Shown here one piece after another: positions 12,558 through 58,485 of a DNA stretch of 64,000 nt; position 1 is the first letter of the stretch; each line of letters begins with the position of its first letter. The translations under genes were made by a program, and so were the position numbers. The DNA comes from Natronobiforma cellulositropha (GTDB taxonomy: Archaea > Halobacteriota > Halobacteria > Halobacteriales > Natrialbaceae): positions 10,664 to 74,663 of the forward strand of contig NZ_JANZXN010000022.1 in assembly GCF_025629245.1 (NCBI RefSeq), given 5' to 3'. The notes beneath the pieces are model-generated. The model saw only the letters and a program-made list of their open reading frames with translations. It was not told the origin of the DNA and did not search any database.

Positions 12558-12722
12558 TCAGCCTCGGAGGTTCTTCGCCTCCTCCTGCGTGACGAAACAG
12601 CCACAGGACGCTTTGATCGTGTACGGTCCCGTCGCCGTCACCCCGACGACGACGCTCTCGCAGTGGGGACAGCGCGGCGGGTTCCACTCCTCGCCGCCCC
12701 AGCGGGCGTACTCCTCGCTCAT
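12558..12722 (-). CDS. 54-residue zinc-binding protein, copy A
   Basis: A small protein with 'RCPHCES' and 'SCGCF', giving a C-x2-C ... C-x-C set able to hold one zinc. It begins MSEEYARWGGEEWNPPRCPHC and ends near 'TQEEAKNLRG'. It is 41 of 54 residues identical to the protein at 58321-58485, with the cysteine core and 'VVVGVTATG' invariant. Both genes are preceded by the same conserved structured DNA element, so the pair is a duplicated locus. Function is unknown; haloarchaea encode many one-domain zinc-finger microproteins, some affecting stress and biofilm phenotypes. The high conservation and matching upstream element are the main reasons to accept this short frame. Confidence 0.85.
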   Translation of the reverse strand: MSEEYARWGGEEWNPPRCPHCESVVVGVTATGPYTIKASCGCFVTQEEAKNLRG

Positions 12723-12800
12723 CGCCGTCCTCCGCGGGTCCGAGACGGGTGGGCGGGGATGTGCGCCGCTCGAGTGAGGGCGTTGTAACTCCGAGAATCG

Positions 12801-12960
12801 GCGTTTCGCGGTCTGTACGGTGCGTTTGCGAGCGTTTTAAGGTCGCGTGGTTGGTACTGAGTCATGGCTTCAGATCCGTTGCGGATGGAAGCCACGCCTC
12901 GGGTGCTGCTACACCCGGGGTACTTCAACGCGTACCCGCATTCTGGATGACGTGGCTTCC
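12801..12960 (-). ncRNA. Conserved structured element upstream of zinc protein, copy A
   Basis: Reading the minus strand from 12960, GGAAGCCACG pairs with CGTGGCTTCC about 60 bases on. Between them lie hairpins GGGTAC/GTACCC and CGGGTG/CACCCG. Then ATCCG-CAA-CGGAT follows and a conserved GAAGCCATGACTC strand, then a TTAAAA box near 12835. Copy B (58083-58251) keeps every helix but changes paired bases together: GGGCAC/GTGCCC and AACCC/GGGTT. That is covariation, seen directly. Whether it is a free RNA, an mRNA leader element or a DNA hairpin site is inference; transcription direction is not certain because the TTTTAA box could drive either strand. Confidence 0.6.
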
Positions 12961-13053
12961 GTGAGCGTGTTGTCCACCGATTGACTTATAGCTACTGGAT
13001 ATTGTCTCGGGCGACGGTATTCGACGGTGTCGGGACCGCTCGAGAGACCGGGA

Positions 13054-57951: not shown

Positions 57952-58082
57952 CAACTCGTTGCCAGGGACCAGCCTCAGTCCCGTACGAAGCATCGCCAGG
58001 TAGCTCGACTCGAGCATACTCTACGAAATCACCAACACTCATCTCCAGAAATTATATGTATCTCTTCGTGAAACTCACCCGT

Positions 58083-58251
58083 GGAAGCCGCGCCCACCGC
58101 ACGCCGGTTAGGGCACGCACAGAAAGTGCCCCGGGTGTAGGAGCACCCGAGGCGTGGCTTCCAACCCTACGACGGGGTTCCGAAGCCATGACTCAGTACC
58201 AACCACGCGACCTTAAAAGGCTCGCAAACGCGCTGTACAGACCGCGAAACG
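58083..58251 (+). ncRNA. Conserved structured element upstream of zinc protein, copy B
   Basis: GGAAGCCGCGCC (58083) pairs with GGCGTGGCTTCC (58151), closing hairpins GGGCAC/GTGCCC and CGGGTG/CACCCG. AACCC/GGGTT (58163-58179) follows, then conserved GAAGCCATGACTC, TACCAACCACGCGACC, a TTAAAA box and GCGAAACG. Relative to copy A the paired bases change together at three positions. The element ends about 70 bases before the ATG of the zinc protein. It occupies most of the 369-base gap after the DUF234 gene, which has no other credible gene. Confidence 0.6.
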
Positions 58252-58320
58252 TCCGTTCTCTGAGTGACCACACTCTCACTCGAGTGTCCTGTACCCGACA
58301 CCCAGACCGGAGGCCCCTCG

Positions 58321-58485
58321 ATGAGTGAGGACGTCGGCCGCTGGGGCGGCGAGAACTGGAATCCGCCGCGGTGTCCCCACTGCGAGAGCGTCGTGGTGGG
58401 GGTGACGGCGACGGGATCGGACACCATCGTCGCCTCCTGTGGCTGTTATCTGACCCAGGCGGAGGCTCGAGACCTCCGGAGGTAG
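58321..58485 (+). CDS. 54-residue zinc-binding protein, copy B
   Basis: Paralogue of the protein at 12558-12722, 41 of 54 residues the same. It starts MSEDVGRWGGENWNPPRCPHC and keeps 'RCPHCES', 'VVVGVTATG' and 'SCGCYLTQAEA'. It holds one probable zinc (C-x2-C plus C-x-C). Differences fall at surface-type positions, mainly after the cysteine motifs, so both copies are under selection. A convergent GNAT gene ends 18 bases after it. Function is unknown; the shared upstream element suggests shared control. Confidence 0.85.
   Translation: MSEDVGRWGGENWNPPRCPHCESVVVGVTATGSDTIVASCGCYLTQAEARDLRR

Follow-up and report, generated by a model that had tools for sequence, protein, structure and literature searches.

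A family of structured leader RNAs with a putative start-codon switch ahead of small zinc-finger genes in Halobacteriales

What is the element that stands twice in a segment of the Natronobiforma cellulositropha genome, each time ahead of a gene for a 54-residue cysteine-motif protein, and what might it do there? The window, by which we mean the whole stretch of 64,000 nucleotides (contig NZ_JANZXN010000022.1, positions 10,664 to 74,663), had been read in an initial annotation as holding a duplicated structured element with compensatory changes, one copy on the minus strand from 12960 and the other on the plus strand from 58083. Both positions were correct. Each copy has the closing helix and inner hairpins as well as the strand GAAGCCATGACTCAGTACC, shows the paired changes that had been quoted, and is followed by a CPHC/CGC protein of 54 residues (76% identical between the two). 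The element is not a duplicated pair, since the genome carries about 21 full-length copies and further partial ones (29 covariance-model matches); also left out had been the copy number, the coupled ORF, pairing at the start codon, a hypervariable loop and the changing type of downstream protein. The features of the two window copies are as follows.

Copy 1
12985–12991, minus strand: predicted TATA box CTATAAG, 30 nt 5′ of the first RNA base (sequence)
12866–12960, minus strand: structured leader RNA (model match 87.5 bits; fold z −5.65; covariation)
12949–12960, minus strand: 5′ strand of P1, GGAAGCCACGTC, paired with 12887–12898 in the minimum-free-energy fold
12906–12911, minus strand: hypervariable apical loop of P3, TAGCAG (loop comparison among the copies of the genome)
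12887–12898, minus strand: middle strand, putatively switching, GGCGTGGCTTCC (covariation of middle and 3′ strands; alternative fold)
12874–12886, minus strand: P4 hairpin ATCCG-CAA-CGGAT (fold; pairing kept despite sequence change from copy to copy)
12866–12871, minus strand: 3′ strand GAAGCC, immediately 5′ of the ATG (covariation; alternative fold)
12719–12865, minus strand: ORF1 (MTQYQPRDLKTLANAPYRPRN...), from the ATG; its stop and the zinc-protein start overlap as ATGA
12836–12841, minus strand: AT box CTTAAA, codons 9–10 of ORF1, a candidate antisense TATA box within an inverted repeat
12558–12722, minus strand: zinc microprotein of 54 residues, CPHC...CGC (sequence)

Copy 2
58052–58057, plus strand: predicted TATA box TTATAT, 31 nt 5′ of the first RNA base (sequence)
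58083–58187, plus strand: structured leader RNA (model match 90.4 bits; fold z −4.77)
58138–58143, plus strand: hypervariable apical loop of P3, TAGGAG (loop comparisons)
58151–58162, plus strand: middle strand, putatively switching, GGCGTGGCTTCC (folding with the 5′ strand blocked)
58182–58187, plus strand: 3′ strand GAAGCC, immediately 5′ of the ATG (covariation; alternative fold)
58188–58328, plus strand: ORF1 (MTQYQPRDLKRLANALYRPRN...), overlapping the zinc-protein start by 8 nt
58212–58217, plus strand: AT box CTTAAA, codons 9–10 of ORF1, a putative antisense TATA box
58321–58485, plus strand: zinc microprotein of 54 residues (sequence)

A conserved RNA fold and its distribution

The leader forms a three-way junction of P1, P2 and P3, followed by the P4 hairpin and the 3′ strand. 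The folding energies of both window copies were better than those of 200 out of 200 dinucleotide shuffles (z −5.65 and −4.77). Across 106 aligned sequences from several haloarchaeal families, two-sided changes occurred at 19 of the 20 pairs, and 96.6% of the paired cells were able to pair, a percentage biased upward by the fitting of sequences to the model (A8 and A9, both prepared in this way, lean towards it; 4 of the 106 rows of A8 are doubtful). Cells with a double change numbered 154, compared with 29.3 ± 4.2 after shuffling and with 28 or fewer in all slid controls. Several of these changes can be picked out by eye: GGAAGCCAC/GTGGCTTCC is replaced by GGAAACCGC/GCGGTTTCC, GGAAGTCAG/CTGGCTTCC or GGAAGACCGG/CCGGTCTTCC, and CGGGTG/CACCCG by GACGTG/CACGTC. 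Among wobbles, G-U (62) outnumbered A-C (18), and the fold under selection is therefore that of the sense strand. A coding reading of P2–P3, in a zinc-knuckle-like frame (KCPGC..STRDVASN), was rejected because the base after TG is free, with TGA and TGG both occurring, and because a loop of either 6 or 7 nt breaks the frame. We conclude that the element is almost certainly a structured RNA.

The home-genome copies align over a common promoter, RNA, ATG and zinc protein. When 60 other genomes were searched with a profile of the zinc protein, 14 gave weak relatives, and the RNA lay upstream at nearly all the loci inspected, even where the protein had diverged. The RNAs from these loci were used to build model R1, which detected the family in 83 of 125 Natrialbaceae genomes (24 of 29 genera), with up to 32 copies per genome, and in 107 of 392 genomes of Halobacteriales, other families included, Haladaptatus being one outlying group of carriers. 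The initial annotation had proposed a covariance-model search for further covarying copies ahead of the zinc protein, and such copies exist. In Natrialbaceae, the RNA is present on named plasmid records of Natrinema, Natribaculum, Halostagnicola, Halopiger and Halomontanus. A broader model, R2, gave zero matches outside Halobacteriales among 393 genomes of the phylum, and when named genomes were scanned with the alignment of the zinc protein, no match could be confirmed.

Neither the window nor 17 related loci matched any of the 4,227 families of Rfam 15 over the element at gathering threshold, the best sub-threshold match being Ms_IGR-2 (20 bits against a cut-off of 45 bits), and we found no description of the RNA family in the open literature; the initial annotation likewise knew of no such RNA. 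The family appears, from its sequence, to be a new class within a known kind, the structured regulatory leader, outside all Rfam families tested. Few natural archaeal regulatory RNAs are on record; a 2021 account names only the Thermococcus fluoride riboswitch as experimentally determined (PMC8241225).

A leader joined to ORF1 and zinc-finger genes

A TATA-like box precedes the first G of P1 by 30–31 nt in 108 of 113 Natrialbaceae copies, and stands at −29 to −32 in most copies from other families. Since 30–31 nt is the archaeal distance from TATA box to transcription start, the first G of P1 is the most likely start of the transcript. The RNA extends to the ATG of a short reading frame, ORF1, and in 95 of the 113 copies the ORF1 stop runs into a Cys-motif protein gene, overlapping its start (by 4 nt in 79 of these, 8 nt in 8 and 11 nt in 5). 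The proposed link between an RNA with compensatory changes, two-sided at 19 of 20 pairs, and a zinc microprotein is strongly supported. The ORF1 peptide reads MTQYQPRDLK[R/T]LANA.YRPRN in the window copies, where it runs into the zinc-protein start; it begins with MTQYQPRDLKRLANA in the home genome and with M[IF]xx[IL]LP[GR][YH]KR[PL]AR in other genera. Given this conserved frame after the ATG, the element is a non-coding leader of about 95–105 nt followed by coding sequence. The earlier remark that no frame is conserved relative to the ATG therefore holds upstream of the ATG and fails downstream, where a conserved frame opens.

The remaining 18 copies have no recognised coupled zinc ORF and belong mostly to one G022 subfamily (MIAYPLPRHKRLARHSV...; L065, L081–L083, L085–L088 and L092), in which the RNA and ORF1 are followed by a conserved GGGGGATTCCCGCGAGG stretch instead. 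In L014, ORF1 contains a 21-nt unit, AGTTACAACTCGGTCACACGG, in about five tandem repeats.

Downstream of most copies are ribbon proteins of the form CPxCG...PCGC, and in the aligned proteins the CPHC/CPRC and CGC motifs, predicted to bind zinc, are near-invariant, the second motif being CGC rather than CxxCG. Genus g12 has CxxC...CxxC proteins, and g87 a protein with CARCG...H..GCP and CWCRPCQSTECRH. Haladaptatus lacks ORF1, and its leader ATG is the start of a SWIM zinc protein; in the two plasmid records that we opened, the RefSeq SWIM genes begin at the leader end. Because the downstream zinc-finger types differ, the shared element is the leader and not one protein family. In g12 (L024, L049 and L118), two tandem zinc-ribbon proteins lie behind one leader, the first fused in frame to ORF1.

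The 54-residue proteins scored above cut-off with no family of Pfam or NCBIfam. Haloferax volcanii has C(P)XCG zinc microproteins (PMC11241148, PMC10716476), which they resemble in being small and in having two motifs broadly like C(P)XCG, and from which they differ in a second motif of (P)CGC, in the switch-like leader and in the absence of a family match above cut-off. In the ten near-identical copies of G114, the zinc gene is under purifying selection, with divergence of 0.017 at codon positions 1 and 2 compared with 0.124 at position 3. In PADLOC, neither the zinc ribbon nor the g87 protein matched a defence model, and the SWIM protein matched only part of the candidate PDC-S62 (47 of 566 positions, 21.5 bits). 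The RNA family flags many unannotated genes for zinc-finger microproteins.

The promoters of the home genome fall into two classes 5′ of the TATA box, with ATCACCGACACCCATTTCCAGAAATTATATGTA in most copies and CCARTASCTATAAGTCAA in three (L001, L003 and L004); the conservation of this long upstream stretch suggests a site for a shared regulator. In Haladaptatus, copy-specific palindromic repeats, about 60 nt before P1, flank the sense TATA box (for example CTTATTCCTTGTAAGGAATA ... GTACAAGGAATAAG; loci L147, L155, L159, L163, L167, L170 and L173) and adjoin a divergent small gene resembling a winged-helix regulator, which suggests additional, copy-specific transcriptional control in that genus.

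Alternative pairing at the start codon

The 3′-side strand of P1, GGCTTCC, is complementary both to the 5′ strand of that helix and to the GAAGCC that precedes the ATG, and in copy 1 covariation and folding point to these same two partners for the middle strand. All three strands covary. GGAAGCC/GGCTTCC/GAAGCC-ATG is matched in other copies by AGAAACC/GGTTTCT/GAAACC-ATG, in Haladaptatus by GGAAGAAC/GGTCTTCC/GAAGACC-ATG and in a fourth set by GGGAACGCC/GGGGTTCCC/AACCC-ATG. The middle and 3′ strands change type jointly (GGCTTCC with AAGCC, GTCTTCC with AAGACC, GGTTTCT with GAAACC), and the Watson–Crick helix between them has a mean length of 5.16 bp, compared with 3.06 bp when the 3′ strands are shuffled. 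In Haladaptatus (GGAAGAAC) and g87 (GGGAACGC), P1 contains a mismatch, and there the 3′ strand pairs perfectly with the middle strand. As the mismatch of the 5′ strand is absent from the 3′ strand, the latter is kept for its own pairing and is no mere copy of the former.

Of 132 folds predicted with the 5′ strand blocked, 124 paired the middle strand with the 3′ strand. In copy 2 (L005), CGTGGCTTC is then predicted to pair with GAAGCCATG, start codon included, and the alternative helix likewise spans the AUG in the other Natrialbaceae folds displayed (L104 and L060). The arrangement that defines a translational riboswitch, two mutually exclusive helices of which one lies over the start codon, is thus predicted here on the basis of sequence and folding only. 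The minimum-free-energy state is the one with P1, favoured by about 8–14 kcal mol−1; being the more stable helix, P1 probably makes an open ATG the default, so that an outside agent would have to open P1. Masking of the AUG by RNA structure is known to control translation in Haloferax volcanii, where it has been used in a synthetic riboswitch (PMC8241225).

We consider that the RNA probably acts as a cis-acting translational switch. With P1 formed, the ATG would be free; with the 5′ strand removed, the middle strand would move over to mask the ATG, shutting the coupled zinc gene as well. The leader family may in this way control how the operons of small zinc-finger proteins are translated in Halobacteriales. 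Order-wide in distribution, very abundant and not in Rfam 15, the family has a sequence that supports a switch at the start codon.

The P3 loop and what may operate the switch

Sequence comparison establishes the RNA family, its spread, its position as a leader, the coupled ORFs, the covariation of the strands and the hypervariability of one loop. This last feature is the most striking. In the ten G114 copies, the P3 loop has diverged by 0.68 per site, whereas fourfold synonymous sites reach 0.16, P1 and P2 0.03, and codons 1–14 of ORF1, silent sites included, 0.00. Six separate sets with 62 copies in all, with 0 to 20% variation in the neighbouring RNA, gave distinct loops in 20 of 20 copies of the home genome, 10 of 10 in G114, 9 of 9 in G022, 6 of 6 in g87, 5 of 5 in g8 and 10 of 12 in Haladaptatus. 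All loops are 6 or 7 nt long and closed by GUG/CAC, and loop bases 1 and 6 form covarying U-G or C-A combinations, which are isosteric (z 13.6). Inversion of the loop between its own arms was considered as the source of this symmetry and rejected, since positions 3 and 4 lack reverse-complement symmetry; a closing pair of isosteric bases is the better fit. The variability itself could reflect a mutational hot spot. To our knowledge, there is no close precedent for a leader in which tens of copies per cell carry a loop that varies from copy to copy on a frozen scaffold, and it poses the question of why each copy should have a different address.

A partner for the loop in the same locus (linker, P2, P4, ORF1, zinc gene and upstream sequence) was not found in excess over permutation, and any partner would therefore act in trans or lie on the antisense strand. 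YUNR, a motif of recognition loops in antisense systems (PMC4485353), occurs in 38 of 101 distinct loops against 15 after shuffling, an excess that disappears once the composition of each loop position is fixed; counting either strand, it occurs in 57 of 101, against 32.9 with a within-loop shuffle and 50.4 with a column shuffle.

A candidate source of antisense RNA lies within ORF1. Codons 9–10 read [TC][AT]TAAA in 103 of 113 Natrialbaceae copies, with A/T at third positions, which is unexpected in a GC-rich genome. This AT box sits inside an inverted repeat whose arms change jointly (AGA/CTC with GGA/CCC); read on the opposite strand, it has the form of a TATA box, 30 nt beyond which lies the base that precedes the ATG. 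The antisense TATA box is not clear in Haladaptatus (CTTGAA) or g87 (TGTAAY), and a good BRE was not found before it. From this promoter, a cis-encoded antisense RNA would start with GGCUUC, cover the leader exactly and take the 5′ strand away, and P3 would serve as a copy-specific kissing loop that prevents cross-talk among the roughly 30 paralogues of a cell. As a complete explanation, a cis-acting leader switch that is operated by antisense RNA, with P3 as the kissing loop, is the one we tentatively favour. Gating by antisense RNA, taken as a claim of its own, is plausible and somewhat short of probable on the sequence evidence, and a ligand or a protein could equally operate the switch. 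It is doubtful that the leaders are barcoded in the strict sense, with each of up to 32 paralogues in a genome holding a six-base address loop and answering to its own antisense RNA only.

The sequence suggests control of the hok/sok or CopA/CopT kind. Shared with those systems are a structured mRNA leader, loops that differ between paralogues and may be enriched in YUNR, and multiple copies on plasmids and chromosomes; an antisense RNA over the start codon would be a further likeness, putative in the haloarchaeal element. As in mok–hok, a small ORF overlaps and is coupled to the effector gene, here ORF1 in most copies, Haladaptatus excepted. The haloarchaeal element differs in being archaeal, in having no sequence relation to either system and in its three-way junction with a start-codon switch, and its putative effector belongs to the zinc-finger proteins instead of the hydrophobic peptides. 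Control resembling that of type I toxin–antitoxin systems has so far been reported from bacteria only (PMC12390103), and the antisense reading, if true, would extend it to archaea.

The junction might instead bind a small ligand or ion, zinc being the obvious candidate, and so stabilize P1 and free the start codon, or the reverse. This is rather unlikely as an account of the family. An aptamer-like 5′ junction, mutually exclusive helices of which one hides the start codon, and a regular position upstream of metal-binding proteins of unrelated families would all suit such a riboswitch, as would the AUG masking demonstrated in Haloferax volcanii (PMC8241225). However, a ligand sensor needs no distinct P3 loop in each genomic copy, 20–30 copies per genome ahead of paralogues are unusual (up to 32 were found), alignment A3 contains few invariant unpaired junction bases that could form a pocket, a hypervariable loop standing where an obvious pocket might be sought, and no riboswitch of Rfam 15 matched.

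Autoregulation, in which the zinc-finger protein would bind its own leader and close the start codon in the manner of ribosomal-protein leaders, with the P3 loop as a protein-specific site, fits the tight linkage of leader and protein, and small zinc-finger proteins are often nucleic-acid binding. The order also has other protein-bound leaders: S15-Halobacteria (RF03143) is likewise a cis-acting structured leader of haloarchaea, although it is a different family, with a separate match elsewhere in L025 and not on the element. Against autoregulation, a constant RNA scaffold precedes unrelated zinc-finger types (ribbon, CxxC/CxxC and SWIM), and the ten near-identical G114 proteins, with divergence of 0.007 at codon positions 1 and 2, come with ten different loops, so that we regard it as unlikely. 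Little more can be said for a trans-acting RNA, an improbable reading in which the leader, or a processed RNA of about 100 nt, pairs with other RNAs through P3, the switch reports this pairing and the proteins are partners: an exposed hypervariable loop on an invariant hairpin and a predicted stable 5′ end at P1 would suit it, whereas the predicted junction of the leader at fixed spacing to a translated ORF and the absence of a same-locus match to the loop above permutation would not.

That the copies are remnants of a mobile element, with hairpins that are DNA features of transposon or MITE ends, is very improbable and already largely refuted, for although there are many copies, some recently amplified (G114) and some on plasmids, the G-U wobbles are biased to the sense strand, covariation spans several families, the promoter spacing is fixed, the protein is under purifying selection, similarity fades at varied distances with no single boundary, no transposase occurs in the unit, one copy is syntenic in five genomes, and an IMG/VR pattern scan and blastn against phages gave no matches, all of which speaks against the decaying insertion-sequence end that had been raised at the outset.

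We also recorded the genes around the copies. The home genome has 34 matches to eCIS_core (PF13699), and divergent eCIS_core genes lie upstream on the minus strand at, for example, L004, L007, L008, L009, L011 and L013–L016; they account for nine flanking proteins at the 20 home copies inspected, and for about 12 of all copies by coordinates. eCIS_core was rejected as a general partner, with 9 of 36 flanking proteins at home compared with 2 of 99 in other genera. The copy that is syntenic across five genomes (L022, L066, L073, L109 and L131) has a gene for a SAM methyltransferase behind it and is likely to be an old, vertically inherited locus; a tRNA gene adjoins several copies, including those at L025 and L031.
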